DNA of 60,952 nucleotides from positions 1 through 60,952 of the forward strand of contig JAGVWX010000008.1 in NCBI GenBank assembly GCA_018304105.1. The letters are read 5' to 3'. The notes beneath the pieces are model-generated. The model ran no database searches, was not told where the DNA came from, and worked only from the letters and a program-made list of their open reading frames with translations. Both the position numbers and the translations under genes were made by a program. This document shows, piece by piece, positions 183 to 43,222 of the stretch. Positions within the stretch are counted from its first letter, which is position 1. Every line of letters begins with the position of its first letter. The DNA is from Candidatus Pacearchaeota archaeon. Lineage in GTDB: Archaea; Nanobdellota; Nanobdellia; Pacearchaeales; GW2011-AR1.

Positions 183-275
183 TGATATTTTAGGCGGGCG
201 GGTGTAGCGTGGCAACGAGCGAATGGAATGAGTGAAGTTGCAAATAAATCAAGACTCGCTTGCGAGTCCTATTTT
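183..275 (+). repeat. structured G-rich intergenic element, type A
   Basis: GGCGGGCGGG followed by hairpin GACTCGC-TT-GCGAGTC (253-268) and CTATTTT. Confidence 0.7.
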
Positions 276-294
276 GGGTAGATAAATGGAACAA

Positions 295-663
295 TCACAC
301 GCTCTTTTCAACCAACTCTTGCAAACTTCCGAATCTTCTTATCTCTCCTCGTTTATCTCCTTCGGCTAAATGCTCGTACAGTTTTTGCGCGTCCTCTCCC
401 TCAAAAACCTTCCTGTCTGGCGTATCCGAACCCACAATTTGAAAAAATGAAACTTCATAAACTGCAACTTTGACTCCGCTTTCCAAAGTAGGCCTGGAGC
501 TTACATTAAACCTAAAACCACGCAACGCGGCATTGTAAGAACTTCCGTCTCCAACTTTTCCCCATCGTTCATAACCCAACCCCATCAATTCAGTAATAAC
601 TTTTGTTCTGTCAGCATTCTTGACAAGAGATCCTTCTCTTCCTTCTTCAGATTCTTCAGGCAT
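295..663 (-). CDS. hypothetical protein, 122 aa
   Basis: Intact ORF with plausible composition; no recognised family. Confidence 0.5.
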   Translation of the reverse strand: MPEESEEGREGSLVKNADRTKVITELMGLGYERWGKVGDGSSYNAALRGFRFNVSSRPTLESGVKVAVYEVSFFQIVGSDTPDRKVFEGEDAQKLYEHLAEGDKRGEIRRFGSLQELVEKSV

Positions 664-749
664 GACTTCGGCAAGATTGAAAACTATTTAGTTTTAATTG
701 CACAACCAAAGACATAAATCCTTTTATAGCTAAAATTACAGTTGTCTTA

Positions 750-1073
750 ATGACTGCAAAAATTGTCGGTTATTATGCTTCTGGGAGTGAAGTAAAAGAA
801 GAAAGAGATAGGTGCCATTTTCCCTTGAATTTTCAAGGCATAAGTCGAGCCTTAGAAGTTCTCGCAAAGAATCACAGAACAAAATCTTTTCAATATGACG
901 GAAACTCTTGTTATCTAATTGATGGCGTTCTTGTTGGATTTCATGTTACAGGAGAACAGCAGCAATCTTCGTTAGTCTTTATATCGGAAAAGGAAAACGC
1001 AGGAAGACTAAATAGAATAATTGAGGAAGACCTGGGATTGCCCCGCCCAAATCAATTATTCTATCTGTCTTAG
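750..1073 (+). CDS. hypothetical protein, 107 aa
   Basis: Intact ORF between annotated neighbours; no recognised family. Confidence 0.5.
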   Translation: MTAKIVGYYASGSEVKEERDRCHFPLNFQGISRALEVLAKNHRTKSFQYDGNSCYLIDGVLVGFHVTGEQQQSSLVFISEKENAGRLNRIIEEDLGLPRPNQLFYLS

Positions 1074-1107
1074 ATAAGTTTTAATTCCTTGTGTTTATTA
1101 CATTGTT

Positions 1108-4100
1108 ATGAAAGAAATTTCCCTAACTCCTCGAGACTATCAGCAAAAGATTTTCGAAACGGCAAAGGACAACAACACTTTAGTTGTCCTTCCAACAGGT
1201 CTAGGCAAAACCCTCATCGCATTAATGCTTTCAGTTGAGCGGCAAAAAAAATTCCCTGGAAAAAAAGCGCTCATGCTCGCCCCCACAAGACCGTTGGTAG
1301 AACAGCATTTCAAAAGCTACCAGAAAAACCTTCCAGAATTATTCGCAGACCTCCAGTTGTTCACCGGAGAAATCCCCGCAAAACAGCGTCAAAAAACTTT
1401 CCAGACCGCAGACATAATTTTCTCAACTCCTCAATGCGTGGATGGAGAAACGATAATTTTTACAGAAGAAGGTCCGATAAAGATTTCAGAATTTTTCAAA
1501 AATTTTGAATTCAAGGAAGGAAAATACAAAAACGGAACTGGAAAATTTGCTGACATCAAAAGCAAAGTCTTAGGATATGATGGGAAAAAGATAAGTTTCG
1601 TAAATGCCTCAAAAGCATGGAAATCTTCTAAAAAAGGTTTAATAGAAATAAAAACAGAACTTGGAAATACTCTCCTATGCACGAAAGATCATCCTCTTTT
1701 AACAATAAATTCGGTCGGTGAAATAAATTGGAAAGAAGCTACTCGATTAAACGTGGGAGATTATGTCGCATCTATAAAAGAGATAAATCTCGAAGAAAAG
1801 AGTTTTGACATTCTAAAATTAATGTCCAACAGTGATTCATTAAAATTATCTGAAAAGCTCAAAATAAAACAAATGGTTGAACAATTAAAAAAGAATAAAA
1901 TTAAGACCTCTAAGTATTCAAGATATCTTCATAACGCCATGCCCTTAAAACTTTTTCTTGAATTAGCGGAGAAAGCAGGTTTGAGTTACAAGTCGTTGTT
2001 AGTTACAGACAACTATGGAAAAAGCAGTCCTGTTAAAATTCCAGAACAATTGAGTTTCAAATTAGCATACATTCTTGGCGCGATGCTTGGTGACGGGCAC
2101 TTGGGAGACCGGTTTCTCCACGGGGGCGAAGTTGTCTTCTCAGACTTAGATAGAGAATCTGTTAGTAATGAATTTCAAAACGCTGTAAAAGATGTATTTG
2201 GAGTCGAGATGAAAAAAGAAAAACGTAAAGGTCTCATTGCTTACAATTCAGCATTTACAACAGTATTATCGCTTTTCGGGATTCCTAAAGGAAGAAAAGC
2301 TAAAATCATCCAAATCCCAAGATTTTTATTTTTTGCAGACAAAGATTCGGTAAAGGGATTTATCAAAGGAATATTTGACACCGATGGAAGTGCCTCCGGT
2401 TACAACGTTTCTGTCTCCAGCATAAGTAAAAAGTTTATAGAAGAATTAAAATGGCTATTTTTAATGATAGGAATACATGGAAATATTGAAAAAAGAAAGA
2501 ACAATGGAACGATTCAAGGAAGAAAAGTCAAGGGTTCTGAAATATTCGCGTTTAGATTCTCGGGAAGGCATAACCTTCTAAAATTTCTAGAAATTTCTCC
2601 AGATATAAACAAATGTAAAAAACTAATCGAAACACTTAAAGCTGCTAAAAGGCCTGAAACTCGCTCAAAAGAAATATTGCCTGTTCCGGATTTAATGAAA
2701 AAAATAAAAAAAGATAATATCAATAAAGCAGAATATTACAAATTCTCTTGCCTTTCTTTAGATAATCTAAGAAAATTATCTGTGAATTTGGATGGAAAAG
2801 ACTCTCTAAAACTTAAAGAGCTCCTTGGCCTGCCAATAAGGTGGGTAAAGATAAAAGATAAGAAAACGAATCATAAAATAAAAGAGATGTACGATCTAAC
2901 TATAGAAAAACACCATAACTTTATTGCAAACTGTTTAATCAGCCACAATTGCATCGCCAATGACCTAAAAGCCGGATTGTACACTCTCCAAGACGTTTCA
3001 CTCTTGATAATCGATGAAGCCCATCGCTGCCTGAAAAATTACGATTACACAAAAGTCGTTGAATTCTACAAGCACCAAACTCCTCTCGAACTTCAAAGAA
3101 TCCTAGGCCTTACCGCTTCTCCAGGAAGTGAAACAGAAAACGTAAAAGAAATCTGCAAGCACCTCGCCGTTGACGAAATAGAAATCCGCTCAAGAGATTC
3201 TCCAGATGTAAAACCTTACCTCCAGGAGTTAGAATTCGAAAAGGTAGTCGTCCCTTTTCCCCCGGAATTCCTTGAAATAAAACTCCTCCTTAAAAAAATT
3301 CATGATTCAAAAACCGACGAACTGCGTCGTAGAAACTTGCTTTTCGGCCCTGCAAACAAATTCGCTCTGCTTAAATTGCAAGGCAAACTCGGCGCAATAT
3401 ACACCAGTTCGAGAGACTTCAACGCAATGATTGGAATGTCTCTTACAGCAACCGCAATAAAGCTCTCCCATGCTCTCGAGTTGTTAGAAACACAAACCCT
3501 TTCTGGAGTAAACGAATATTTCAATAATTTAATCGAGCAGGCAAACCAGAAAAAATCAAAAGCCGTCCAAACCCTCGTCAAGTCTCCGGAATTCACTCTC
3601 GCCAGAACTTTCCTTCAGAATCTCATCACTAAAAAAGTCGAGCACCCGAAGATTGAAGAAACCGCAGTCATCGTTGAAAACCAATTCAAAGAGAAAGAAA
3701 ATTCCAAGATAATTATTTTCACTCAGTTCCGTGAAACCGGAGTCACACTTACTCGCAGGCTCAACGAAATTTCAGGCATTCGCGCAAAATCATTCTTCGG
3801 TCAGGCAAAAAAATCAGGAACAGGTCTCTCGCAGAAAGAACAGAAAGCAATAATCGAACAGCTCAACTCCGGAGAAATCAATGTTCTCGTCGCAACTTCA
3901 ATAGGCGAAGAAGGCCTCGACATAGCCGAAGTCTCAACAGTAATTTTCTACGAGCCAATACCAAGCGCGATTAGAAAAATCCAAAGAACTGGCAGAACCG
4001 CAAGGCTCAAGCCAGGCAAACTCATAATCCTCGTCACAAAAGATACTCGCGACGTCATCAACCATTACGCCTCAACCGCAAGAGAAAAAAAGATGTACAA

Positions 4101-4170
4101 AACGATAGAAGGTGTCAGGGCCGACATAAAGGAAAGTAATAAAATAAAAACATTAGATGATTTCAAGTAG
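1108..4170 (+). CDS. hef: Hef-type SF2 helicase (FANCM/MPH1-like) interrupted by an intein
   Basis: VLPTGLGKTLIALML (motif I), LIIDEAHRC (motif II), LGLTASPG, ATSIGEEGLDIAEVSTVIFYEPIPSAIRKIQRTGRTAR (motifs V-VI). Confidence 0.9.
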   Translation: MKEISLTPRDYQQKIFETAKDNNTLVVLPTGLGKTLIALMLSVERQKKFPGKKALMLAPTRPLVEQHFKSYQKNLPELFADLQLFTGEIPAKQRQKTFQTADIIFSTPQCVDGETIIFTEEGPIKISEFFKNFEFKEGKYKNGTGKFADIKSKVLGYDGKKISFVNASKAWKSSKKGLIEIKTELGNTLLCTKDHPLLTINSVGEINWKEATRLNVGDYVASIKEINLEEKSFDILKLMSNSDSLKLSEKLKIKQMVEQLKKNKIKTSKYSRYLHNAMPLKLFLELAEKAGLSYKSLLVTDNYGKSSPVKIPEQLSFKLAYILGAMLGDGHLGDRFLHGGEVVFSDLDRESVSNEFQNAVKDVFGVEMKKEKRKGLIAYNSAFTTVLSLFGIPKGRKAKIIQIPRFLFFADKDSVKGFIKGIFDTDGSASGYNVSVSSISKKFIEELKWLFLMIGIHGNIEKRKNNGTIQGRKVKGSEIFAFRFSGRHNLLKFLEISPDINKCKKLIETLKAAKRPETRSKEILPVPDLMKKIKKDNINKAEYYKFSCLSLDNLRKLSVNLDGKDSLKLKELLGLPIRWVKIKDKKTNHKIKEMYDLTIEKHHNFIANCLISHNCIANDLKAGLYTLQDVSLLIIDEAHRCLKNYDYTKVVEFYKHQTPLELQRILGLTASPGSETENVKEICKHLAVDEIEIRSRDSPDVKPYLQELEFEKVVVPFPPEFLEIKLLLKKIHDSKTDELRRRNLLFGPANKFALLKLQGKLGAIYTSSRDFNAMIGMSLTATAIKLSHALELLETQTLSGVNEYFNNLIEQANQKKSKAVQTLVKSPEFTLARTFLQNLITKKVEHPKIEETAVIVENQFKEKENSKIIIFTQFRETGVTLTRRLNEISGIRAKSFFGQAKKSGTGLSQKEQKAIIEQLNSGEINVLVATSIGEEGLDIAEVSTVIFYEPIPSAIRKIQRTGRTARLKPGKLIILVTKDTRDVINHYASTAREKKMYKTIEGVRADIKESNKIKTLDDFK
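1435..2949 (+). other. In-frame intein (505 aa) with LAGLIDADG homing endonuclease domain
   Basis: Starts CVDGETIIFTEEGPIKISEF; block B-like CTKDHPLLTI; LAYILGAMLGDGH and KGFIKGIFDTDGS endonuclease motifs; ends HHNFIANCLISHN followed by C+1; removing it joins IIFSTPQ to CIANDLKAG. Confidence 0.93.
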
Positions 4171-4347
4171 CTACCTGTCAAAAACAGCGATTATACTCAC
4201 AATTACGGCGATTAAAATAGACAGTGCGCTTATAAAAAGACCTGAATAAGTAAGAGCATTAATTCTTATTAATTCAAGTACAAAATAGATAAACACAAGA
4301 AAGTTTATTATCTGAGGAAGAATATTTAACTGATTTGAGATTTTCAT
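4171..4347 (-). CDS. small membrane protein
   Basis: Two hydrophobic segments; ATG start at 4347, the longer ORF uses a TTG. Confidence 0.5.
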   Translation of the reverse strand: MKISNQLNILPQIINFLVFIYFVLELIRINALTYSGLFISALSILIAVIVSIIAVFDR

Positions 4348-4348
4348 T

Positions 4349-4462
4349 TTATGCAATTAATGTACGTATTATTTGAAAGACAAGCAATGCAACGGCTATC
4401 AATCCTAAAACCCATGCCAAAATCTGCAGCCATGATATTTTTTCTTTTCTTTCCACCTTCAT
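4349..4462 (-). CDS. single-TM microprotein, 37 aa
   Basis: MKVERKEKISWLQILAWVLGLIAVALLVFQIIRTLIA; abuts the next minus-strand ORF. Confidence 0.45.
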   Translation of the reverse strand: MKVERKEKISWLQILAWVLGLIAVALLVFQIIRTLIA

Positions 4463-4504
4463 TATAAGCAACAACATTATATAAGTTTAATTCTTATTTT
4501 CAAG

Positions 4505-5161
4505 ATGAAACCCTTCTACAACATCTTCTCATCAAAAAAAGTTCCAGAAACAAAAGTTAAAATTCTCATTGACAATAGGGAGAAAAATTCTCTAGTTCCA
4601 TCTTTTCTGGAAGAACGTGGTTTCCAAGTCGAATTCAAACAGCTTCCCGTCGCAGATTACATCGTAAAAGAAATAGCTATAGAAAGAAAAACCGTTTCAG
4701 ACTTAAAGTCTTCAATAATAAGCAAAAGAATAATCTCACAACTTCTTGAACTCAAGCAATATCCAAAACACCTTCTTCTTGTCGAGGGAATTCTTGATGA
4801 AGATTTGTACAATTCAGGAATCCATGAAAACGCCCTTAGGGGTTTCCTCTTGTCTGTCGCATTAGAATTCCAAACTCCGCTCATCTTCACTCACAATGAA
4901 GAAGACACCGCAAAATACATTTACGTCCTTGCAAAAAAAGAAAAACCCTCAGAATTTTCATTAAGAGCCTCAAAGATTCTTCTCTCAAAAGAAGAGCAAA
5001 TACAATTCATCCTCGAAGGCTTCCCTAACATCGGTCCGGCAAAAGCATCTGCGTTAATAAAAAAATTCAAGACCCTCAACAATATCTTTCAAGCAAGCGA
5101 AGAGGAGCTTGAAGAAATTTTAGGCAAAAGAGCAAAAGAATTTAGAGAGCTTCTTGACTAA
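4505..5161 (+). CDS. XPF/ERCC4-type nuclease with C-terminal HhH domain (stand-alone Hef nuclease half)
   Basis: ILIDNREKNSLVPSFLEERG, VADYIVKEIAIERKTVSDLKSSI (ERKxxxD core), HhH EGFPNIGPAKASALIKKF. Confidence 0.9.
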   Translation: MKPFYNIFSSKKVPETKVKILIDNREKNSLVPSFLEERGFQVEFKQLPVADYIVKEIAIERKTVSDLKSSIISKRIISQLLELKQYPKHLLLVEGILDEDLYNSGIHENALRGFLLSVALEFQTPLIFTHNEEDTAKYIYVLAKKEKPSEFSLRASKILLSKEEQIQFILEGFPNIGPAKASALIKKFKTLNNIFQASEEELEEILGKRAKEFRELLD

Positions 5162-5190
5162 ACATTTCGTCTAAACCTACCAAGAGATTA

Positions 5191-5328
5191 GAATTGTTTG
5201 CGATAAATAATTTGACTTGTCGATACATTAATTACAAGTCAAAACTATCTGGGCAGGATGAGCGAGCGATTACGCGACGAGTATTTAGTTAGCATACTTC
5301 GCGCGTGGTCGCGAGTAGCAAACAATTC
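5191..5328 (+). repeat. structured G-rich intergenic element, type B
   Basis: Stem GAATTGTTTGC (5191-5201)/GCAAACAATTC (5318-5328); inner hairpin TTTGACTTGT/ACAAGTCAAA; ACTATCTGGGC. Confidence 0.8.
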
Positions 5329-5360
5329 ACAAAAGAGATTTTCAGCAAAACCTGCAAGTA

Positions 5361-5990
5361 TCAACTTGAACTAAACTCTTCAACAACAGTATAATTCGGT
5401 CCCATCGGATTCAATTCCGACTTCATCAACCTAAATTCCTTGACTTCCCATTTCAGCTCCTTCACTCCCAAATTCCTAACATATTCAACAAACTCTCTCG
5501 GAACCTTAACATATTTCACTCTCGCGATACTCAAATGGCTCATAAATCTTTTTTCTTTTCCAAACCCGCACTTCAACATCGCTTCATCAACCGCTTCCTG
5601 CAATTCAAAAATTCCCTTCCCTCCGACTTTAATCCAAACTATCGAAGGATTCCCCCTATGGCTAAAAGTCCCCGCTTCCGCGAGCCGAGCTTCAAACTTT
5701 TCAAATTTAATTTTCTTTAACTCTTTCCTTATTGACTTCAACTTCTCTTCATCAATTTCTCCAAAAAACTTCAAAGTCAAATGCAAGTTCTCTGGTTCAG
5801 TCATCTTCCCAGTAAACTGCCTCTTTCCCAAAACTTCCTGCACTCTCGCAATTTCCTTGACAACTTCGTCAGGAAAATCAATTGCAATAAACGCCCGAAT
5901 TAACTTATTTTCCATATCTTCCATAAAATTCATCATTAAACTCGGTTTAATAACCTTCCTTTTGTTCAAACCCATTAAATCTAATTTCAA
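5361..5990 (-). CDS. thpR: RNA 2',3'-cyclic phosphodiesterase (2H/LigT family); likely true start MENKLIRAF at 5915
   Basis: HLTLKFFGEI and HLSIARVK, the two HxT/S motifs of the 2H superfamily. Confidence 0.9.
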   Translation of the reverse strand: MKLDLMGLNKRKVIKPSLMMNFMEDMENKLIRAFIAIDFPDEVVKEIARVQEVLGKRQFTGKMTEPENLHLTLKFFGEIDEEKLKSIRKELKKIKFEKFEARLAEAGTFSHRGNPSIVWIKVGGKGIFELQEAVDEAMLKCGFGKEKRFMSHLSIARVKYVKVPREFVEYVRNLGVKELKWEVKEFRLMKSELNPMGPNYTVVEEFSSS

Positions 5991-6004
5991 ATTGATCTTC
6001 TAAG

Positions 6005-6080
6005 CCTGTTCACAAGACGGTAAATTGGGCGGCGGTTTATTAATTAGTGAACGAAGTGAACCTGCAAATTGAAGCTATTT
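6005..6080 (+). repeat. short type A-like element
   Basis: CTGTTCACAAGACGG, GGGCGGCGG, GTGAACGAAGTGAAC. Confidence 0.45.
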
Positions 6081-7286
6081 CGGCACAATCGCCGCCGTTG
6101 AATATTTCTTTATCGCATTAGTAGCCGTCCTTTTCACATCTTCCAATTTAACATTCATCACCTTGTTCTCGTAATCATAATAATCTTCTGCCTTGCCTAT
6201 AAGTTCGTGATACATCAGCTCATTCATCACGTCACTGCTTTCCTCGCTCGAAACTTTTCTCAATCCTATTAGCATCTCCTTCGCTTCTTCCAAATCCTTC
6301 TCGTTCATCTTCTCAACGTCCTTAAATCCCTGCACAATCAGCCCATGAACTTCCTTAACTGCTTTCTTAGTCGTCCCAACATAAACTGAATAATATGAAT
6401 AATTTTTTTCAGTCGCTAGTGAGCTCCGAACTGTATAAGCCAATCCTCGCTTCTCCCTTATTTCCAAAAACAACTTAGAGGACATTCCTCTTGCAAGATA
6501 TGCATCCAAAACCGCCAAGTCATAATATTCTTTATCCGTGAACAAAGGCGCGTGAAAAGCAAGGACAAAGTGTGCCTGGTCAATTCCCGCCCTCTTCTCT
6601 ACGCTATTCTTGTTCCATTTTTCAATTTTCGGCAATTCTAAATTTCTGCTCTTCGAAATGAACTTTTTTTCGAGATATTCGCAGACTTTATCAAAGTCAA
6701 CATCTCCGACAATCGTAACTATGTAATTTTCTCCTGTATAAACATTCTTAAAATAATCCGCAACAAAATCTCTTTTCAATTCGTTCAAAGTCTTCACGCT
6801 TCCTGCAATTCCTTCTCCAAATGGCTTTCCGTAAAGATTCGACTCAATCTGGTCCATTACGTGTTTCTGCGGCATGTCATGATACATCTTAATTTCCTCG
6901 ATAACGACTTTCTTCTCTTTCTCAAATTTCTTCTCCTCAAAAATCGGATTGTTCATAATATCTGTTATGATATCCAAACCAGCAAATACATGCTCGCTCG
7001 GCAGCTTGAACCAAAACGACGTCACGTCCTGCGCAGTAAACGCGTTCAAAATTCCACCTTTTTTCTCAATTTCCCTCGAAATATCCTCATGCGTCCTTGT
7101 CTTCGTCCCTGTAAAAACCAAATGCTCAATGAAATGTGCAATTCCTTTAATCTTTGAATTTTCATAAACTGCCCCAAATGGATTTGTAATTGACAGCGAT
7201 ACAAGCGGCAGCTCTCTCTTTTCATACACAACTCTCAATCCATTCTTTAGCTTTTTCCTAAAAAATCTTGATTCCATCCGCGCCAA
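6075..7286 (-). CDS. M16 family zinc peptidase
   Basis: GIAHFIEHLVFTGT (HxxEH) plus GGILNAFTAQDVTSFW. Confidence 0.92.
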   Translation of the reverse strand: MARMESRFFRKKLKNGLRVVYEKRELPLVSLSITNPFGAVYENSKIKGIAHFIEHLVFTGTKTRTHEDISREIEKKGGILNAFTAQDVTSFWFKLPSEHVFAGLDIITDIMNNPIFEEKKFEKEKKVVIEEIKMYHDMPQKHVMDQIESNLYGKPFGEGIAGSVKTLNELKRDFVADYFKNVYTGENYIVTIVGDVDFDKVCEYLEKKFISKSRNLELPKIEKWNKNSVEKRAGIDQAHFVLAFHAPLFTDKEYYDLAVLDAYLARGMSSKLFLEIREKRGLAYTVRSSLATEKNYSYYSVYVGTTKKAVKEVHGLIVQGFKDVEKMNEKDLEEAKEMLIGLRKVSSEESSDVMNELMYHELIGKAEDYYDYENKVMNVKLEDVKRTATNAIKKYSTAAIVPK

Positions 7287-7331
7287 AAGAAGCTCAAGTT
7301 CATAAACATTATGGAAATAAAGTTAACCTTA

Positions 7332-8078: not shown

Positions 8079-8126
8079 AAAAATATTAAGGGTCTGCTCT
8101 TTTAATGCTTTTCTTACATAATTGCC

Positions 8127-9089: not shown

Positions 9090-9311
9090 GATGAAAACAA
9101 GCGATAAATTGCAGATATTTTCCCAGCCCCTAAACTTCGCAATATTTCTTTATTTCTCGATTACGTTAATTAAAATAAATTAACTCTTTTCTTCTAAAAA
9201 TTTACAATCATAAACTATCTGTTCGCATCTAAACCTGGCTTACTTCCGGTATCTTCGCCATATTGATTTATTCTTATTTCCAGCAAATTTAAGCTATTTT
9301 GAAAGAATCTC

Positions 9312-9439
9312 TGTTGAAAAAACCTAATTATTGGTTTACCATATTGGTTAGGGGCGAGGAGGGGTTTGGGAATGGGTAGACTTTTCACCGAAGGTGAAAT
9401 CCTTGTGGGAATCTCAAACCAACTAAAAGAGTTTCAACA
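9312..9439 (+). repeat. structured G-rich intergenic element, type C
   Basis: Outer stem TGTTGAAA/TTTCAACA; TTGGTTT/AAACCAA; hairpin TTTCACC-GAA-GGTGAAA (9383-9399); ATCCTTGTGGGAATC. Confidence 0.75.
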
Positions 9440-9477
9440 AGCTACCTGAAAGAAAACAATTTATACTTCCGTTTTCT

Positions 9478-12019: not shown

Positions 12020-12187
12020 CTGGCAGCGACGAAATGCGAACGCAGTGAGCTAGAGAATTAAGACTTGCGTCAAGAACTCCGAGCCAAAATTGCAAGTCCT
12101 ATTGGGCGGGAAAGGCTGAGCAGAAACAACAAGCGTAAGCGAAGTTGCAAATTATCAAGACGCCGCCACAAAAACTGGCGTCCTATT
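12020..12187 (+). repeat. structured element, type A, two tandem copies
   Basis: GCGAACGCAGTGAGC; hairpins GACTTGC...GCAAGTC (12062-12098) and GACGCC...GGCGTC (12159-12182), each followed by CTATT. Confidence 0.7.
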
Positions 12188-12227
12188 TCATAGCAATCTT
12201 TAAATAATATCTTTCTTACTATAAAAC

Positions 12228-14072: not shown

Positions 14073-14227
14073 CTTTTATGAAAAAATAAAGAAGTTAAAT
14101 ATCTATCTGTTAGCAAATAAACTTAGCTGAACAGCTTAACATACGATAAAAAGTACGATAAAAAATAATAAATGCCCATTAACAAGACGGTTCAGGGTTG
14201 GTGATTAGATAATTTGCGAGTGAATAA

Positions 14228-14372
14228 ATTTTTTGACGTTAGGCACTGTTCGAAACCATATTGTCTTTATCGAACAGTGCATTGGGTGAGCGCACTACGC
14301 GACGAGTATTTCAATAACACATTTCGCGCGTAGTCGCGAATGGGTGGGTGGGTAAAAACAACGCCAAAAAAT
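14228..14372 (+). repeat. structured G-rich intergenic element, type B-prime
   Basis: Stem ATTTTTTGACGTT/AACGCCAAAAAAT (one G-T pair); hairpin GCACTGTTCGA/TCGAACAGTGC; TGGGTGGGTGGGT. Confidence 0.78.
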
Positions 14373-14468
14373 ATAAATTAGCAAGCTGGAAATAAACCTA
14401 TCGCCCTTATTGTTCACAAAACCCAAAAGCTTTAAAGAATAAACTCATCAAATTATCAAAGAGGTTAA

Positions 14469-15908: not shown

Positions 15909-16022
15909 ATTTCCGGGCGGCGGGATAGAAGCGAACGCAGTGAGCCAGCAAATTTGACTTGCTGGCTGCCTCAATGCGCAAGCATTGACCTCGTCTCTTG
16001 CAAAGCAAGACAAGTCCTATTT
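15909..16022 (+). repeat. structured element, type A, carrying a 31-bp submodule
   Basis: GGGCGGCGGG, GCGAACGCAGTGAGC, GACTTG...CAAGTCCTATTTT; submodule 15965-15995. Confidence 0.7.
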
Positions 16023-16091
16023 TAAACAAAAGATAAATCCTTACTAATAGTGCAACGAAACATATTTAAACAATATTCCAATTAGTTAACC

Positions 16092-16725: not shown

Positions 16726-16853
16726 TAGGCGAGCGGCTGCCTCAATGCGTAAGCATTGACCTCGTCTCTTGCTGCCTCAATGCGTAAGCATTGACCTCGT
16801 CAATTGAGCCAAATTATCAAGACTTGCACCTCTCAAAATTGCAAGTCCAATTA
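16726..16853 (+). repeat. type A element with tandem 31-bp direct repeat
   Basis: GCTGCCTCAATGCGTAAGCATTGACCTCGTC at 16736-16766 and 16771-16801; GACTTGC...GCAAGTCCAATT. Confidence 0.75.
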
Positions 16854-16870
16854 AAATATGAAAAATAAGA

Positions 16871-17773: not shown

Positions 17774-17811
17774 CGTTTCGTCCCCCTAATTTTTTACTAT
17801 TTGCTCTAATC

Positions 17812-17998
17812 ATGTTGAAAAAGTCTAAGTTGCAGGTTTTACTATTTTGAATTGGGGCAAGATAGTAGTGTGGGAAGGGCGAGCATGGTACACGAGAGCA
17901 ATGTATAGAAAATTCGAGAGTGCCTGCGAGTAGGGCTTTTGACCGAAGGTCAAATCCTTGTGGGAATCCTAAAACCTGCCAAAGGATATTTTCAACAT
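17812..17998 (+). repeat. structured G-rich intergenic element, type C
   Basis: Stems ATGTTGAAAA/TTTTCAACAT and GCAGGTTTTA/TAAAACCTGC; hairpin TTTGACC-GAA-GGTCAAA (17938-17954). Confidence 0.82.
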
Positions 17999-18028
17999 AA
18001 CCAGCCATTATACTAATTTTAAAAAATT

Positions 18029-18488: not shown

Positions 18489-18606
18489 CGGCACAAGATG
18501 ACGGTTTATTATTTTTAGTAGCGGGGCGAAACAGGAGCGAGCGAATTAAAGGAACGAAGTTGTCAATAGATTTGACTTGCAGCCTCAAGCATGGCAAGTC
18601 CTATTG
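18489..18606 (+). repeat. structured element, type A
   Basis: GCGGGGCG; GACTTGC (18574-18580)/GCAAGTC (18594-18600); CTATT. Confidence 0.65.
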
Positions 18607-18674
18607 AACTAAACGCAAAACTCAAACTAACAGAAAGCAGCACAATTTATAAAATCAGCAACCTTTAGTTCTTA

Positions 18675-19283: not shown

Positions 19284-19353
19284 TAATTTTGGCGACGGCG
19301 AGTAGAGCGAACGCAGTGAGCTAAATAATCAAGACTCGCTTGCGAGTCCAATT
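19284..19353 (+). repeat. structured element, type A
   Basis: GCGAACGCAGTGAGC; hairpin GACTCGC-TT-GCGAGTC (19333-19348) identical to 253-268. Confidence 0.72.
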
Positions 19354-19414
19354 GAACAAAAGCCCAAAACCCAAATCTATTTAATTTCCCCAATCTAACA
19401 AATAACACATTGTA

Positions 19415-19564
19415 GCGCTCGCCTATTGCCAATAAGCACTAAACCCAACGCCAGCGCATTTTGCGATAAATGATCGCGAGCTCAAAGAACGCAATGTCGA
19501 AAACTGCTCGCGACAATCTGGGCGGAGGGTGGGTGCAAAATGCGCGCAAAAAAACCGCGAGCGC
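19415..19564 (+). repeat. structured G-rich element, type B, nested
   Basis: GCGCTCGC/GCGAGCGC; GCGCATTTTGC (19454-19464)/GCAAAATGCGC (19535-19545); TCGCGAGC/GCTCGCGA; CTGGGCGGAGGGTGGGT. Confidence 0.82.
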
Positions 19565-28565: not shown

Positions 28566-28662
28566 GCTTTTTGGCGCGGAGCAAACGAGCGCACGTAGTA
28601 AGCGAGTTTGCTATAATTAAGATGCAGTCTTTCGCAACTGCATCCAATTCCCGCCAAAAAGC
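28566..28662 (+). repeat. structured element, type A variant
   Basis: GCTTTTTGGCG/CGCCAAAAAGC; GATGCAGT/ACTGCATC followed by CAATT. Confidence 0.7.
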
Positions 28663-28720
28663 GTTATATTTATCCAATAAAATAGAAAATCTAAGTTATA
28701 AATTATATGGTCTATAAAGC

Positions 28721-28876
28721 TTTGTTGAAAAAGCCAATTATTGGTTTATTAATTTGGTTTTGGAGAAATCAGAATTGTTTGCAACAAATAATTCGACTTA
28801 CGAGAATTATTAACTGCAAGTCGAAACTATCTGGGCGGGAGGGTGGGCACAAACAATTCAAGAGATTTTCAACAAA
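28721..28876 (+). repeat. structured G-rich element, type B, nested
   Basis: TTTGTTGAAAA/TTTTCAACAAA; GAATTGTTTG/CAAACAATTC; TTCGACTT/AAGTCGAA; CTGGGCGGGAGGGTGGG. Confidence 0.82.
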
Positions 28877-28951
28877 ACTCTATCACTAATAGATATTATA
28901 ATAATTAATTCGCAAATTGAAGCTATTTTATAATCCAATATCTTATAGACA

Positions 28952-29278: not shown

Positions 29279-29393
29279 TAACGGTCGGTGGAGTTGGTAA
29301 AATATTTTTGGGCGGGGGTGGGACGTAAAGCGAGCGCAGTGAGCCAATAATCAAGACTTGCGCTTCTCAAAACTGCAAGTCCAATTCATTAAG
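29279..29393 (+). repeat. structured element, type A
   Basis: GGGCGGGGGTGGG; GCGAGCGCAGTGAGC; GACTTGC/GCAAGTC then CAATT. Confidence 0.7.
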
Positions 29394-34710: not shown

Positions 34711-34734
34711 TTCTGTTAAAAATACAATTAATTT

Positions 34735-34832
34735 CCTGTTCACAAGTCGGTCTGGCTGCCTCATGAGTGAAAGAATGACTTTGTAAGTGTGGTGGTGAGA
34801 TAATTTAAGCGAGCGCAGCGAGCCAAATAATC
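34735..34832 (+). repeat. truncated type A element
   Basis: CTGTTCACAAGTCGG, GCTGCCTCA, GCGAGCGCAGCGAGCCAAATAATCAA; no terminal hairpin. Confidence 0.5.
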
Positions 34833-34852
34833 AAAAAACATTTATCTAAGAC

Positions 34853-35413: not shown

Positions 35414-35425
35414 TAATTCTCCCCA

Positions 35426-35968: not shown

Positions 35969-36103
35969 ATGCCGAGCCAAGATTATTCTGGAAAAAGAAA
36001 AACAAAAAACGATAAGCGGGCCAAATCCAGATATAACAAGTTCAAGGTAGGCGGCTCACAGCGCTCAGCGAATATAAAATTAACTAACGAAAAATCAAAA
36101 TAA
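35969..36103 (+). CDS. small basic protein, 44 aa
   Basis: MPSQDYSGKRKTKNDKRAKSRYNKFKVGGSQRSANIKLTNEKSK. Confidence 0.45.
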   Translation: MPSQDYSGKRKTKNDKRAKSRYNKFKVGGSQRSANIKLTNEKSK

Positions 36104-36137
36104 CAATCTTAATAAAACTCATTTTCCTAAACAAGAA

Positions 36138-36983: not shown

Positions 36984-37566
36984 TCACTTCTTTCTTCGGT
37001 GTTTTAACGACTCTCAAAGATTTATGAACTTCATTCAGCTCTTCCTCGCTTGCCTCATAAGCAACCGAATTCACGTCAACTCTTTTGTCATAAACTGGAA
37101 TAACGTTCACAATAACTTCATCAAACGCCCTCGAAGTTTGAATCTCCGTCGCGCTTGCTTTCAGTTTTGAAACCATCTTCGAAGCAATTTTCTTTGCCAA
37201 ACTCATCGCCCCCGAAGGAATTTCTTTTGAATCTCTTGCAAGAGTCCTTGGAATAATTATTACATGTCCTTTACTAACTGGTCTTATCGAAACAACCGCA
37301 ATTGCTTCTTTGTTCTCATCAACTTTCTTGCTCGGAACATCTCCAGAAACTATCATCCTAAAAACGCTTCTTTGCTCCCTCGCCCCACCGCTCCCCGCCT
37401 GTCCAGTAGGCTGGCGTTGCTGCTCAACCATCGAAGAAATCGTCTCATCGCTCATTCCGCTAAGCTGCTGCCGAGCCGCTTCTTTCTGCGCCCCATCGGA
37501 CATTTTCTCAACCTGCTCATTCAATTGCTTCTTCGCCAAATTAATATCTTCTTTAGACAACATCAA
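36922..37566 (-). CDS. HIT-like domain protein with degenerate His triad
   Basis: AVVSIRPVSKGHVIIIPR resembles the HIT strand; triad position reads VIVNVIPVYD rather than HxHxH. Confidence 0.65.
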   Translation of the reverse strand: MMLSKEDINLAKKQLNEQVEKMSDGAQKEAARQQLSGMSDETISSMVEQQRQPTGQAGSGGAREQRSVFRMIVSGDVPSKKVDENKEAIAVVSIRPVSKGHVIIIPRTLARDSKEIPSGAMSLAKKIASKMVSKLKASATEIQTSRAFDEVIVNVIPVYDKRVDVNSVAYEASEEELNEVHKSLRVVKTPKKEVIKVKKKTEKEEVIKLKRRVP

Positions 37567-37653
37567 TAAAGATAAGAAATAACGTTTATATAATTATTCA
37601 AGAAGGCCTGCATTTTTCAAAAACCTTTTAATCCTGAGAAGTTTAAATAAAAT

Positions 37654-38037
37654 ATGAAAGAAAAATACTACAAGCAGCTTTTTCTCATAGGGGCGCTATA
37701 CGATATCATTCTAGGATTTGGATTTTTATTATTTTACAAGGCCATTTACGATGTTCTTGGGATGACTCTTCCCCAAAACCCTGCCTATTTGTCTATGTGC
37801 GCCATGCTGATTGGCCTTTACGGAATCCTATTATTCATGATTTCTCAAGACCCAAAAAACAACAGAAAAATGATAATTTACTCGTCGTTGATTAAGTTCG
37901 GGTTCGCTACAGTAGTTTTCTACTATTGGTTCTTCTTCGGCCCTCGATACGTTGACGTTCCGTTTAGATTTTTCGGCGCGATAGACCTCGTCTTCGGCTT
38001 GCTCTTCCTAGAGTCCTTGAAGTTTGCTAAGAAATAA
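37654..38037 (+). CDS. multi-TM membrane protein
   Basis: Intact ORF with four hydrophobic segments. Confidence 0.55.
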   Translation: MKEKYYKQLFLIGALYDIILGFGFLLFYKAIYDVLGMTLPQNPAYLSMCAMLIGLYGILLFMISQDPKNNRKMIIYSSLIKFGFATVVFYYWFFFGPRYVDVPFRFFGAIDLVFGLLFLESLKFAKK

Positions 38038-38088
38038 TCAAATGCTTAATTTAGATAAGTATAAAATCTTTTAAAATCTTTTTCTATA

Positions 38089-38454
38089 ATGGAAAAGAAG
38101 ATTTTACGTTTTCTTAGACCAAATAAGATGAGTATCCTCGCTACTATTATCTCGGCAATATTTCTGATTTCTCTTAACATATATATAACTTTAGAGTATC
38201 AAAAAGTTAACAAAACAGTATATGAAGCAGAAATTTCTGTCGTTTATCCATCAATCAACTATCTTCACTTCAATAGTTCAGAAGAAAAACAGAATTACAT
38301 CAACGAACTCGGGCTTACATTAAACGAAGACTATTACAAAACAACCTTTATTGGTTCGTTAAAGCAAGTGTTATCAAAGACCTACCCTTATTCAATTATT
38401 CCTATTGCCTTGATATACCTTGCCTTTTCTTATCGTTATAATAAAAAAGATTAA
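38089..38454 (+). CDS. membrane protein, two TM segments
   Basis: Intact ORF with N- and C-terminal hydrophobic segments. Confidence 0.55.
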   Translation: MEKKILRFLRPNKMSILATIISAIFLISLNIYITLEYQKVNKTVYEAEISVVYPSINYLHFNSSEEKQNYINELGLTLNEDYYKTTFIGSLKQVLSKTYPYSIIPIALIYLAFSYRYNKKD

Positions 38455-38460
38455 AAGAAA

Positions 38461-38736
38461 TTACCCGAAAGCCCTTCTGTAATCTTCAGTCTCAACCGAA
38501 CTCACCCCGTCCACTCCCGCAAGTTTATCCTCGAAAATTGAAGTGTCTTTTTCTTCATGCCATGCAAATTTCACAAAGATTGCCTTCAGCCCAAAAGCCA
38601 TCGGTCTTTCTTCAAAAGAAATATTCATCGCGCCATCTTCTTCCAGCCTTTCCTTCGCTGACTTCTTAATCGCTTCCAAATCTGAATCCAGCGATTCCGG
38701 CATCAACCTAACAATTACTGCAACTATTCCTGCCAT
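38461..38736 (-). CDS. ef1b: archaeal elongation factor 1-beta
   Basis: VIVRLMPESLDSDLEAIKK...FGLKAIFVKFAWHEEK...GVDGVSSVETEDYRRAFG. Confidence 0.88.
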   Translation of the reverse strand: MAGIVAVIVRLMPESLDSDLEAIKKSAKERLEEDGAMNISFEERPMAFGLKAIFVKFAWHEEKDTSIFEDKLAGVDGVSSVETEDYRRAFG

Positions 38737-38915
38737 ATTATTTAGACACAGCTTTCTAAACAGTGTCCAATTCCAAAATAAGAAAGATGGTTTATAAAAT
38801 TACGCATTAAGGTTATTTTAAAGTCAAATCAACTGGCCCCGCCGCAGCAAGCTGCGGGGTAAACCCCAGGAAGGAATTTAATTTACGTGAAGTTAAACTC
38901 CGCAAAATCGGGCAG

Positions 38916-41693
38916 TTACGCGCTCCCCGAACCTAATTTTTCCAAGTGTTCAGCAACTTTTTCGTCAATAATCATAATTCTTCTTATTGATTTTACGTGC
39001 TTGTGCCTAAGAAGAACATTCTTCTGTTTAATCTTCCTTGCAATGTTTTTATCAAGTTTGATTAACCAGCCATAAATCTTTGGCTTTTTATCTTCTAGAT
39101 ATACCCCTTTTATGTTGCCGATGTAATTACCATTTTCCGCATAAACCTTTTTCCCCATAATGCTCGTTAATCTCGTCATATCCTTTGGCTTTCTGTTCTT
39201 AAATATCCAAGATAAAAGACTGATCAATGCAATTAATAATAAAATTCCGCAGCCTGCAAAAAAATAAGTCTTATTACTGCTGACAAATTGTACTGCAGAC
39301 AAAGATCCTTTTCTCATATTGGAAAATAAGTTTTTAATTGATTCAGAAACTTTGATTCCTGCAGGGGACGTTTCTTTTATATCTCCGGCATCTTTTGTTT
39401 CATTTTCATCCAATTCATTTATTTGCATTCCCGTCGAAGGGGCAATTATTTCAATTTTTCTATATGACTCTGCTGAATAATTCTCATACCCCACTTCTGT
39501 ATAGAAATCATAAATTCCTGGTTCGAGAGTATTTGGCATAAATAGTTTAACCGTTTGTGTCTTCTCCTCAAGTATACCTAAATAAATTGTATCTTTTCCC
39601 AAGTCTAATCTCTTCCTCTCGTTTTGAATCCAAAAGGTAACTATAACATCCCCCTTTATTTCAGCCATGCCCCTTATGTAATAAGTTAAATTGAAGAACT
39701 CTCTCGACTTGATAGGAGAAACTATATCTACTATTTTAACATCAAATAATTTTACGCATTTATTAGAATAACAGGAATAATCTGTTTTGCAATCTGCATC
39801 CCTTTCACATTCGTGAGTTATTATTGTTCTTCCTCTTCCACCAGAGAAGGTTTGTGTTGCTAGTTGCTCTCCGCAATCTAATATATTTCTAAATTCTAAA
39901 TAAGTATTATTATTTCCAGAATTCCATAAGTCTGATAGAAGATTTGTAATTGCATAACAAGTTCCATAGTTTTCATCATATTCTGTTTTGTTTCTTGTTT
40001 GGTTCATAGTCTCGTCTGCTAAACAAGATATATTTGTCCAATCTGTCCAACTGCTGTTTACGATACTATAAGAACAATAATTGCAAGAAACCGTTTGATT
40101 TTCAAACCAGGTTACATTGATAAATAAATCCGAAATTAAACCAGTAACAGCGTAACAGGTTGAATAATTGTTATCATACTCTGTCCAGTTTCTTGTTTGA
40201 GTTTTATTATCAAATATACTGCAGGAGGTTATATCGTACCAGTCTGATTTTGTAGTATTTACATTATTAAATGAGCAATAATTGCAACTTATATTTTGAT
40301 ATTCATAAATAGTTTGATTAGCAATTTCTCCGCAATTATTTGTATCATATTGAGTTAAGTTTCTAATCTGGGTTTGATTATCATAAATGTCGCAAATTCC
40401 AAAATTTATCCAATCACTCCAACTTGTGTTTACCAGATTAGTTATACAAGAATTTACAGTATAGCTTCTTGTTCCAGAGGAGTTATAATTATGACCTGTT
40501 CCGTTTCCCCAGCTTCCCCAATAATATGAATATGTTCCATTTGTCAATGAAACAGAAACGTTATAGACATTAGATGTCAAATTTTGAGCGGTGTAATTTG
40601 TATTATTTATCTGCAAAAGTACTGTTCCGTTCGTATTCTCAACTGTCACATTAAACAACGCAATTCCATTCCCAATTAAAGTTGCATTATCATCCCAATA
40701 ATCTGAGAAGATAGGATAAATTGTGTCTGCAGCTGGAGGAACATAACTTGTATTGACAATCACGCTTCTCTGCTCAGTTTGATTCTTATTTCCAGCTATA
40801 TCGATGGCATAACCTGTGAACGTGTGAGTTCCATTTGTTAAGCTTGTGAAATTATTATAATACTGATTTACACTTGCATTGTACAATGCCAGAATCTCCG
40901 AGGAAGAAAGAGTCCTGTTAAATACCATCATTTCGTCGATTGTGCCATTGAAATAACCGCTGAATCCAACACCTATATGCATTCCCTGAAGGGCACATGT
41001 CGCAGTAATTGCAGAATCAACTTCTTGAGTTCCGTTAATATATATTTTGTTGCTTGTCCCATTCCTCACCCATGCAACATGATACCAGATACCTGGCGTA
41101 ATTGAAGTTGTTGTGGAGCCTGAATAAGCAGCATTGCATGGCAGTACCCTTATTTTATTAGTCGAAATCTGCATAAGTCTTTGAGGAGAGGCGTCCACAA
41201 GGCTATTACCGTCTTCAAATATTCCGCGATTAGCTGTACTATCTGACTTTATCCATAAAGAAAAAGTTTCATTTTTAGGTGATGCGCCTGTCAAACCAGC
41301 AGTATTCACATTAACATAACCATTAGTAACATTAAACTGGAATGCACTTCCAAACCTGCCGCCAGAATTTAGCGTAGCATTTCCAATAGCAGTGCCATTC
41401 ATTCCGTATGTGGAAAGATCATAGAACATCGCCCCCAGTGTCCCAGCACTCTGATTTGTGTCATCCCCCCTAATCCACAACACAAGAGATTTGTCGAAAT
41501 CAACAAACGCATAATGCTCTGAAGAATCATTCGTTGAAACATTTACATAAATTGAATCTCCAGATTGTGAACTTCCATTACTCGGCGTCGGATTTGTAAA
41601 GTCAATATCGGGCAAAGTTGTGTCTGATGCAGAAACCAATACGAGAATAAAGAATATTAAATATATTGCAACCAATAAATACTTCTTACTCAT
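38916..41693 (-). CDS. surface protein: signal peptide, LamG-like domain, Ig-like module, three TSP1-like repeats, TM, PRC-barrel tail
   Basis: LamG-like WYHVAWVRNGTSNKIYINGT...GYFNGTIDEMMVFNRTLSSSEI; W..W..C repeats; TM YFFAGCGILLLIALISLLSWIFK; PRC MGKKVYAENGNYIGNIKGVYLEDKKPKIYGWLIKL. Confidence 0.8.
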   Translation of the reverse strand: MSKKYLLVAIYLIFFILVLVSASDTTLPDIDFTNPTPSNGSSQSGDSIYVNVSTNDSSEHYAFVDFDKSLVLWIRGDDTNQSAGTLGAMFYDLSTYGMNGTAIGNATLNSGGRFGSAFQFNVTNGYVNVNTAGLTGASPKNETFSLWIKSDSTANRGIFEDGNSLVDASPQRLMQISTNKIRVLPCNAAYSGSTTTSITPGIWYHVAWVRNGTSNKIYINGTQEVDSAITATCALQGMHIGVGFSGYFNGTIDEMMVFNRTLSSSEILALYNASVNQYYNNFTSLTNGTHTFTGYAIDIAGNKNQTEQRSVIVNTSYVPPAADTIYPIFSDYWDDNATLIGNGIALFNVTVENTNGTVLLQINNTNYTAQNLTSNVYNVSVSLTNGTYSYYWGSWGNGTGHNYNSSGTRSYTVNSCITNLVNTSWSDWINFGICDIYDNQTQIRNLTQYDTNNCGEIANQTIYEYQNISCNYCSFNNVNTTKSDWYDITSCSIFDNKTQTRNWTEYDNNYSTCYAVTGLISDLFINVTWFENQTVSCNYCSYSIVNSSWTDWTNISCLADETMNQTRNKTEYDENYGTCYAITNLLSDLWNSGNNNTYLEFRNILDCGEQLATQTFSGGRGRTIITHECERDADCKTDYSCYSNKCVKLFDVKIVDIVSPIKSREFFNLTYYIRGMAEIKGDVIVTFWIQNERKRLDLGKDTIYLGILEEKTQTVKLFMPNTLEPGIYDFYTEVGYENYSAESYRKIEIIAPSTGMQINELDENETKDAGDIKETSPAGIKVSESIKNLFSNMRKGSLSAVQFVSSNKTYFFAGCGILLLIALISLLSWIFKNRKPKDMTRLTSIMGKKVYAENGNYIGNIKGVYLEDKKPKIYGWLIKLDKNIARKIKQKNVLLRHKHVKSIRRIMIIDEKVAEHLEKLGSGSA

Positions 41694-41973
41694 TTTTGCC
41701 ACCAATAATAAATTTAATTTTTTTGCCAATACTCTCTTTTGGTAGAATAATATGTGCGCCCGTTCCAAAACAGGTAATTTGCCTCTCTAAAATTTCGCTG
41801 TTAAAAAAATCAATTTTAAGTTCTTTTTTATTAATAATTTTAGAATCACCAATAACAATCTTTGCTTTTTTCCCTATAAGAGTTTTAGAAACAAAAACAT
41901 GAGCCCCATTACCAAATTTAGAAGGAATTTTTTCAAAAATATTTAAATTGCCAAAATCTGCCCTTATGTTCAT
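41686..41973 (-). CDS. DUF2080-like protein with two tandem copies
   Basis: KFGNGAHVFVSKTLIGKKAKIVIGD and CFGTGAHIILPKESIGKKIKFIIGG. Confidence 0.65.
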   Translation of the reverse strand: MNIRADFGNLNIFEKIPSKFGNGAHVFVSKTLIGKKAKIVIGDSKIINKKELKIDFFNSEILERQITCFGTGAHIILPKESIGKKIKFIIGGKNE

Positions 41974-42058
41974 ATATACCTAGTATATATGATCCTTATA
42001 AAGATTATGATTAAGTATTCTCGTTATCAGAATTAACAAAACCACCACCCCATAAATG

Positions 42059-42067
42059 TTTATAAAA
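42059..42067 (+). promoter_or_regulatory. archaeal TATA-like box for the RPA-like gene
   Basis: TTTATAAAA 21-29 nt upstream of ATG 42088. Confidence 0.5.
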
Positions 42068-42087
42068 CCTAGTTCTTTTTACAAAAA

Positions 42088-43026
42088 ATGGATAACTATC
42101 AAAAGCTTATTGAAAGAATTGCCAAGTCTTCCAACCTTGATATAAGCGAAATCGAGAGGCGGGTCGAGGCAAAAAAAGCAAAGCTCTCCGGACTAATTTC
42201 CAAAGAAGGTGCCGCGCAAATAGTTGCCGCAGAACTCGGAATAAACTTCGACCATGAAAAACTCAAAATCTCAGAAATCCTTGACGGAATGAAAAGGGCA
42301 AATATCGTTGGAAAAATAATCAGAACCTTTCCTGTAAGAGAATTCAACAAAAACGGCAGGGAAGGAAAAGTAGCCTCATTCATCCTCGCAGACGAGACCG
42401 CGAACATCCGCGTCGCCTTGTGGGACACAAACCATATTTCGTTGATTGAAAGCGGAAAAATCGGAATAAATTCCATCGTCGAAATCTCGGGCGGAAACAT
42501 AAGAAACAACGAATTGCATCTTTCTTCTTTCGCAGAATTAAAACTCAGCAACGAAAAAATAGAAAATGTTAATGAACAGCAAATGACCAGCGAAAAATCA
42601 CTCAAAGACGCCCAGCCCGGGCAAAACATTCGAACTCGCGCAATAATCGTCCACGCGTTCGAACCAAGATATTTCGAAGTCAATCCTGAGACTGGCAAGA
42701 AATTTACCGAAGCGGACAAAAACAATGGATTGCAGCCCAAAAAACGCGCACTCCTGAACATTACTTTAGACGACGGTACCGAGTCCATGCGTTCCGTGCT
42801 TTTCGGAGAGCAAATAAACAAACTCGGCATCGCAGATGAAGAAATCTTCTCTCTCGAAGAATACGCCAAAGCAAAAGAAAGAATATTGGGCGAAGAAAAA
42901 TATTTTATCGGCCAAATCCGCACAAACGCCTTCTCAAACTCCCCCGAACTCACAATCAACGGCGTCGAAGAAGTCAATCCCGATGAACTAATCAAAGAAC
43001 TTGAAGCAAAACAACTAACTCCGTAA
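42088..43026 (+). CDS. replication protein A-like OB-fold protein
   Basis: VGKIIRTFPVREFNKNGREGKVASFILADETANIRVALWD. Confidence 0.85.
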   Translation: MDNYQKLIERIAKSSNLDISEIERRVEAKKAKLSGLISKEGAAQIVAAELGINFDHEKLKISEILDGMKRANIVGKIIRTFPVREFNKNGREGKVASFILADETANIRVALWDTNHISLIESGKIGINSIVEISGGNIRNNELHLSSFAELKLSNEKIENVNEQQMTSEKSLKDAQPGQNIRTRAIIVHAFEPRYFEVNPETGKKFTEADKNNGLQPKKRALLNITLDDGTESMRSVLFGEQINKLGIADEEIFSLEEYAKAKERILGEEKYFIGQIRTNAFSNSPELTINGVEEVNPDELIKELEAKQLTP

Positions 43027-43081
43027 AAACATCGTTCTCACAACATATAATCTTTTAAACATCCCCCAACATTTAATAGTA

Positions 43082-43222
43082 TGCGGCGCTTGACCAATGC
43101 TAGTAAAATCATAATTTGGCGTTAGACGATATTGCCAGAACATTACTTATGCAATATCGTATGGGGGGGCGGGATATAAAAACGCCAAATTATAAGAAAG
43201 CAAGCTGTCCAATTACGCCGCA
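43082..43222 (+). repeat. structured G-rich element, type B-prime
   Basis: TGCGGCG/CGCCGCA; ATAATTTGGCGTT (43111-43123)/AACGCCAAATTAT (43181-43193); ACGATATTGC/GCAATATCGT; ATGGGGGGGCGGG. Confidence 0.85.

Follow-up and report, generated by a model that had tools for sequence, protein, structure and literature searches.

The window analysed here is the whole stretch of 60,952 nucleotides (positions 1 to 60,952 of the forward strand) of contig JAGVWX010000008.1 from Candidatus Pacearchaeota archaeon (GCA_018304105.1). A first-pass annotation proposed that at least a dozen intergenic spacers in this DNA share one architecture, in which a stem encloses an inner hairpin and a G-tract. A single common architecture was not found; instead, we distinguished at least four kinds of related modules. 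Kind (a) is a composite bounded by terminal inverted repeats (TIRs), with Arm I and/or Arm II. Kind (b) is a nested stem of the GGCGTTAG type. Kind (c), which is commoner, consists of a GA-hairpin followed by a AATCAAGAC...GTCCTATT hairpin. Kind (d) is a module in which a hairpin lies between GGCTGCCTC and GACYTCGTC. Two covariance models were used, R1 for the nested stem and R2 for kind (c). R1 was searched against the whole genome, and the remaining analysis of this genome covered 773 of 1055 kb and short stretches of other contigs. The elements in the window are as follows, with E-values of the models in parentheses.

214-275, + strand: R2 element (E = 1e-8), with GGCGGGCGGG ahead of it at about 193.
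5171-5352, + strand: putative composite MITE, left end lost (R1, E = 2e-17); Arm II forms a nested stem (5191-5328; arms GAATTGTTTGC at 5191-5201 and GCAAACAATTC at 5318-5328) that encloses an inner hairpin (5211-5243) and, ahead of the returning arm, a GA-flanked stem; the right TIR lies at about 5339-5352 (reverse complement GGTTTTGCTGAAAA).
9307-9445, + strand: putative MITE of the Arm I type, ends ATCTCTGTTGAAAA and TTTCAACAAGCTA; the flanks TTGAAAGAA and CTGAAAGAA form an 8/9 direct repeat, the best over several registers.
12031-12105, + strand: R2 element (E = 1e-11).
12128-12189, + strand: R2 element in tandem to the preceding one (E = 2e-8).
14210-14385, + strand: GGCGTTAG-type nested stem, with its inner hairpin at 14243-14280 and its G-tract at 14342-14352, surrounded by what is left of a GA-hairpin element.
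15926-16023, + strand: R2 element (E = 4e-4) with a GGCTGCCTC-hairpin module (15964-16001, family D9) in its hairpin loop.
16735-16854, + strand: two tandem GGCTGCCTC-hairpin modules (16735-16772 and 16770-16807, family D9), then the second hairpin of R2 (R2 at 16777-16854, E = 4e-10).
17807-18002, + strand: putative MITE of the Arm I type, TIRs TAATCATGTTGAAAA and TTTTCAACATAACC, no clear target-site duplication (TSD); 87% identical to C14:55622-55799.
18545-18607, + strand: divergent R2 element (E = 0.04).
19302-19355, + strand: R2 element (E = 5e-12).
19454-19545, + strand: nested stem (arms GCGCATTTTGC at 19454-19464 and GCAAAATGCGC at 19535-19545) with inner hairpin and GGGCGGAGGGTGGG (R1, E = 9e-10); no TIR seen; an ATG (19584) lies 38 bp downstream.
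28566-28662, + strand: R2 element (28584-28651, E = 2e-7) whose outer stem, GCTTTTTGGCG/CGCCAAAAAGC, pairs perfectly over 11 bp.
28718-28879, + strand: putative complete composite MITE (R1, E = 4e-18), Arm II at 28772-28859, left TIR AGCTTTGTTGAAAA, right TIR TTTTCAACAAAACT.
29325-29388, + strand: R2 element (E = 3e-13), with GGGCGGGGGTGGG ahead of it at 29310.
34804-34844, + strand: R2 element without the second hairpin (R2, E = 3e-4).
43111-43193, + strand: GGCGTTAG-type nested stem with 13-bp outer arms (ATAATTTGGCGTT at 43111-43123 and AACGCCAAATTAT at 43181-43193), inner hairpin 43126-43160 and GGGGGGGCGGG.

The three stem pairs quoted in the first-pass annotation (5.2, 19.5 and 43.1 kb) are indeed perfectly paired, with 100% complementarity in each. 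The G-tract is a feature of some copies and is missing from others. Three close G-runs occur on the + strand at 14342, 19520, 28833, 29310 and 43163; a few G-run sites on the - strand fall inside genes. Among the copies, the single-stranded sequence TATCTGGGCGGG is conserved, and the stems covary significantly, far above shuffled and slid controls. In an alignment that was itself fitted to the model, 94% of paired cells were complementary (70% when shuffled, 30-46% when slid) and 217 cells were changed on both sides, as compared with 56 in controls. Hairpin and G-tract modules occur in MITEs and also without MITE ends, and they nest in one another's loops. For example, GGCGTTAG-type elements, the type found at 14210-14385, lie inside GA-hairpin loops at C13:8884 and C6:27722, and an R2 element lies within the inner loop of a nested stem at C17:52805. 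Module copies share common segments with differing left breakpoints.

The composite class has 14-bp TIRs (GGYTCTGTTGAAAA). TIR pairs enclose 83-364 bp without a sizeable open reading frame (the longest encodes 67 aa). In 12 of about 30 TIR pairs, a 9-bp TSD with a 9/9 or 8/9 match was found exactly at the predicted register, and seven MITEs have perfect 9-bp TSDs. In the sister species G008, an insertion sequence (IS) of 873 bp (locus L275) has ends matching GGYTCTGTTGAAAA pairs and encodes a 265-aa transposase of the IS5 family (NCBIfam NF033579, 147.8 bits against a cut-off of 140; also PF01609). The MITE ends match those of this IS, GTTGAAAAAGTC on the left and GTTGAAAATCT on the right. At G008:C154, a MITE and this IS, with the same TIRs and the same 9-bp duplication, are arranged in the order TGCAGAACC-MITE-TGCAGAACC-IS-TGCAGAACC. 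Therefore, judged from their sequences, the composite elements are probably MITEs of the IS5 family that belong to a genus of Pacearchaeota, and the suggestion of a mobile non-coding element holds for this class. An intact IS5 partner was not found in the 773 kb of this genome, and five intervals of G000 and G003 that are bounded by or adjacent to TIRs contained no autonomous partner; besides the intact copy in G008, fragments are present in G007. The positions of elements differ between congeners, and in about nine cases in which the spacer of a relative was compared with its orthologue in our genome, the latter has no element. In G008, a direct repeat of about 24 bp adjoins the element in locus L111, an observation that we do not generalize. 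The composite elements resemble known IS5-family MITEs (PMC10969869) in being short, multicopy, intergenic and free of open reading frames, with TIRs shared with IS5 and a TSD of fixed length. They differ in their large, nested and evolving cargo with compensatory arm changes and in their strict replication polarity; a word search of this review turned up neither orientation nor replication. Several elements in the window (the R2 elements and those at 19.5 and 43.1 kb) have neither a recognizable TIR nor a recognizable TSD, and the IS5 explanation is therefore limited to the composite class. No TIR could be recognized in the 35 R2 copies inspected with their flanks, and we do not class R2 and GGCGTTAG-type elements as MITEs.

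In the window, every R1 and R2 match is on the + strand, whether the flanking genes are divergent, convergent or co-directional, in line with the first-pass annotation. The same polarity was found beyond the window. R1 identified 25 nested-stem sites in the whole genome (best E = 1e-19) and R2 gave 47 matches in 773 kb (best E = 1e-13). The G-rich strand is opposite to the GC-skew (putative leading) strand at all 25 R1 sites and in all 47 R2 matches, the latter modules being TIR-less. In a model-free comparison, 303 of 320 pairs of non-coding repeats obeyed this rule. The third-codon skew is independent of gene strand. Orientation thus tracks skew, not genes, genome-wide and in sister species; it is not random. 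These results agree with a replication-linked DNA element and argue against a gene-linked terminator or riboswitch. Neither random orientation nor absence of covariation was observed, and neither a known Rfam family nor a published MITE was found to match.

We compared the polarity of MITEs and IS copies. When scored by end type, 27 of 30 TIR-MITEs from five genomes agree with the polarity, whereas only one of four full or partial IS copies, all on short contigs, does so (Fisher p = 0.012, with a small IS sample). With agreement in only one of four IS copies, and with R2 modules that are polar although TIR-less, it is unlikely that polarity is dictated by the ends alone. The modules, more than the transposon ends, seem to carry it. 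With DNA parameters, folding favours the G-rich strand over its complement at 22 of 24 R1 sites and 18 of 21 R2 sites; this advantage persists after shuffle correction at 19 of 24 and 16 of 21, respectively. The asymmetry between the strands is about 1 kcal/mol.

We propose, as the explanation with somewhat better than even prospects, that these are IS5-family MITEs with structured cargo whose polarity arises from orientation-dependent retention at the replication fork. A DDE transposase would act on the 14-bp ends, presumably in trans, and insert MITEs with a 9-bp target duplication. The cargo between the ends consists of modules (hairpins, G-tracts and GA-flanked stems); these also stand alone, sit in one another's hairpin loops and are amplified in tandem. 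The polarity would be uniform because the modules are tolerated in only one orientation relative to the fork. Provided that the G-excess strand is leading, the strand that is G-rich and folds slightly better would be excluded from the lagging-strand template, on which hairpins may be deleted by slippage.

The main rival to retention is fork-targeted insertion, in which the transposition complex would contact PCNA or another part of the archaeal replication machinery and so insert MITEs in one orientation, much as TnsE of Tn7 and several bacterial IS transposases use the beta clamp. We consider this possible but rather unlikely. According to a review (PMC5371812), clamp binding and a replication-related orientation bias are seen in multiple IS families, and all seven MITEs with perfect TSDs are oriented as the polarity rule predicts, an observation that oriented insertion accounts for just as readily as rapid purging does. 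The transposase has a weakly PCNA-box-like sequence, QLNFGRFL, at residue 18, a short motif that alone is not evidence. However, the orientation of the IS copies themselves and the equal polarity of TIR-less R2 modules are difficult to reconcile with this idea. Orientation is tied to replication direction both here and in Tn7 and clamp-interacting IS elements (PMC5371812); here, polarity tracks cargo over ends, the host is an archaeon and the PCNA contact is only putative.

We are equally doubtful of a second idea, that the modules are themselves mobile: without help from the IS5 transposase, folded single-stranded DNA would enter hairpin loops at the fork by copying or ligation, and would only hitch-hike in MITEs. 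The multicopy and polar R2 elements without TIRs, the nested modules in loops at C13:8884, C6:27722 and C17:52805 and the different left breakpoints would fit this idea. However, the analysis revealed neither an enzyme nor a junction signature for such a process, and recombination and tandem slippage between repeats can give the same mosaics. There is a modest chance that the modules are a separate kind of mobile structured DNA with replication polarity, which would spread into hairpin loops at the fork by its own process and for which IS5 MITEs would be just one vehicle.

It is improbable that the elements are polar chromosomal sites under selection for host replication pausing, termination or segregation. 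The strict genome-wide polarity and strong compensatory change in the arms would be expected of such sites, but their positions vary between congeners, several sister genomes have none, and about 285 kb of this genome (C22, C12 and C5) contains no confident R1 or R2 copy. An origin from IS200/IS605, as REP/REPIN- or PATE-like elements that a Y1 transposase mobilizes in single-stranded form, is very improbable. This genome has one intact Y1 transposase, and elements of the IS200/605 type are oriented by replication (PMC6006769, PMC5371812). Moreover, REP, BIME and REPIN elements with RAYT, and IS200/IS605-derived elements, are also intergenic palindromic mosaics (PMC3116915, PMC6006769). However, the composite class has TIRs and a 9-bp TSD and a DDE rather than Y1 enzyme, and the ends of the Y1 gene are unrelated. 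The distribution of Y1 genes is also uncorrelated: G003 is element-rich without Y1, and G006 has five Y1 matches and no R1 or R2 element. We therefore rejected this hypothesis. A structured non-coding RNA family, the least probable of these readings, would account for the covariation and conserved TATCTGGGCGGG, but was rejected because Rfam gave no match above the gathering score and in-stem G-T pairs only modestly exceed A-C (36 against 25 in R1; 25 against 14 in both models with Watson-Crick neighbours), and orientation tracks replication. Reverse transcriptase-driven copying was rejected, since the sole RVT_1 match in this genome has an in-frame stop and G006 and G009 have reverse transcriptase genes yet no R1 or R2 elements; an IS6-family origin, suggested by the look of the TIRs, was rejected because ten PF13610 loci have no matching TIR pair around the transposase; and identity with integron attC sites is unlikely given the housekeeping gene context.

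Hairpin-forming elements of mitochondria (double-hairpin or repetitive; PMC2800124) are likewise mobile, gene-less and intergenic. In those of sponges, the loops vary and the stems are conserved (PMC2800124), whereas here the stems vary with compensation and unpaired sequence is conserved. We found no literature that joins Pacearchaeota with palindromic intergenic elements, or DPANN with intergenic, transposable inverted repeats.

The replication biology of DPANN archaea is little known, and the near-perfect polarity of these elements offers a natural read-out of fork direction in this group. The many independent insertions provide a test of oriented insertion against orientation-dependent hairpin loss. 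Furthermore, MITEs can acquire nested structured cargo, the stems of which change by compensatory substitution.

The genome under study is an archaeal draft of 23 contigs (1.055 Mb), and the window comprises all of contig C8. The ERCC4-type protein of the window shares 81% identity with its counterpart in Candidatus Pacearchaeota archaeon UBA73. The first-pass annotation had described intergenic elements with a single shared architecture, in which the stem arms vary between copies and remain paired. The three stem pairs quoted in it are exact. The single architecture did not hold: once the spacers were read, they proved to contain several element types. Two covariance models were used. R1 was built from nested-stem copies in this genome and its sister genomes, and R2 from copies of the GA-hairpin type, which carry a second hairpin. 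R1 gave 25 distinct sites in the whole genome, one of which is palindromic and appears under both strands, and the search of 773 kb with R2 gave 47 matches at E values up to 0.1. Covariation in both alignments is strong. Because each alignment is fitted to its own model, the sliding and shuffling controls are important here: when the partner was slid, paired cells dropped from 94% to 30-46% (R1) and 20-33% (R2). It should be mentioned that the excess of G-T pairs over A-C mismatches is only modest, and therefore we do not take the covariation to indicate an RNA. When DNA parameters were used, the G-rich strand folded slightly better than its complement. In E. coli, template-switch homogenisation of inverted-repeat arms is commoner on the leading strand (PMC6357072), and such homogenisation could be another way in which the perfect arms are maintained.

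The annotation had further described the orientation of the elements as independent of genes and had taken this to suggest a DNA element linked to replication or segregation, or a mobile non-coding element. The GC skew of the contigs is present at third codon positions, alike in the genes of both strands. Thus, it is replication, and not the strand of the genes, that this skew reflects. In the negative-skew contigs C1, C4, C7, C8, C11, C13 and C14, every R1 site and every R2 match is on the + strand, and in the positive-skew contigs C6, C17 and C19 every one is on the - strand; in C11 the total skew is near zero and the third-codon skew is -0.25. The same rule, with the G-rich strand of the element opposite to the G-excess strand, also holds on C3, C9 and C21. 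In a model-free comparison, 303 of 320 non-coding repeat pairs, which are not independent of one another, obeyed it, and in the sister species 20 of 23 R1 loci matched the local 3-kb skew. We assume that the G-excess strand is the leading strand; the coding share (about 56% by our sum) and the tRNA genes (11 of 15 in contigs with element matches) weakly support this assumption. Replichores are defined here by skew in a draft genome, not by a mapped origin. One Cdc6 gene is present, on C19.

Some regions and elements depart from this pattern. Contigs C22, C12 and C5 (about 285 kb) have the same composition as the remaining genome, and no confident R1 or R2 copy was found in them. This region contains one degenerate R2 match (E=0.06) and, at C5:6463, one TIR-MITE with the wrong polarity. 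In G003, a genome of the same genus, one element also runs against the local skew; it occupies positions 1-204, at the extreme end of contig C12. The same G003 contig carries a CRISPR-like array (43199-44424) with the repeat GTTGCATTCCTTAATCCCTTTGTTCTGAATATGAAAC. The window itself contains the following other features:

1108-4170, LAGLIDADG-domain intein splitting a DEAD-box (Hef-like) helicase
38916-57942, very long ORFs with internal repeats (for example, 50918-55546 and 55504-57942) and repeat blocks in common, probably surface proteins
49030, 58211, 59783 and 59852, further repeated intergenic motif GTTAAGTGCTCYCCRAA, in a part of the contig where the GC skew fades or reverses

One class of elements, the composites, has 14-bp TIRs and 9-bp TSDs and carries hairpin and G-tract modules. 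A scan for the composite terminal stem GGYTCTGTTGAAAA gave convergent pairs spaced 83-364 bp apart. Just outside these pairs are 9-bp direct repeats, which are perfect on both sides in cases such as tgtataaga, ttgaggatg and agcaaattc. In the sister genome G008, a 224-bp MITE adjoins an 873-bp IS on contig C154 (locus L275), with TGCAGAACC at all three junctions, and the 265-aa ORF of this IS encodes an IS5-family transposase. Copies of the composite in G003 show 87-94% identity. About nine spacers in our genome are orthologous to element sites of the relatives, and all are empty. The assignment of the composite class to IS5-family MITEs is well supported. When TIR-MITEs were scored by end type, 27 of 30 obeyed the polarity, including all seven with perfect TSDs. 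Only four IS copies could be scored, three of them fragments in genome G007 and the other the complete IS of L275; in this small sample, one of the four agreed. On G008:C184, at about 1480-1665, an R1 element lies between the copies of a diverged direct repeat of about 24 bp from the 3' end of the neighbouring gene; our orthologous spacer is empty. The sole intact IS200-type Y1 transposase (G000:C17:109667-110023, in our genome) has its own terminal hairpin and is unrelated to the elements.

The cargo modules combine freely. The loops of GA-hairpins at C13:8884 and C6:27722 house GGCGTTAG-type elements, and R2 copies are nested within nested-stem hairpins or MITEs (C17:52805; L275). Tandem R2 repeats occupy C13:5799-5989. 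Furthermore, left breakpoints differ among module copies with common segments.

The cause of the polarity is a separate matter from the IS5-MITE identity of the composite, and on this point we infer a mechanism. Insertion targeted to the fork in one orientation might be the source: the youngest MITEs are already polar, and a precedent for oriented insertion exists (PMC5371812). Alternatively, and in our reading, modules may be kept at the fork according to their orientation. Such orientation-dependent retention would accord with the polarity of modules that have no TIRs, with the apparent lack of polarity in the IS copies and with the asymmetry of folding between the G-rich strand and its complement.
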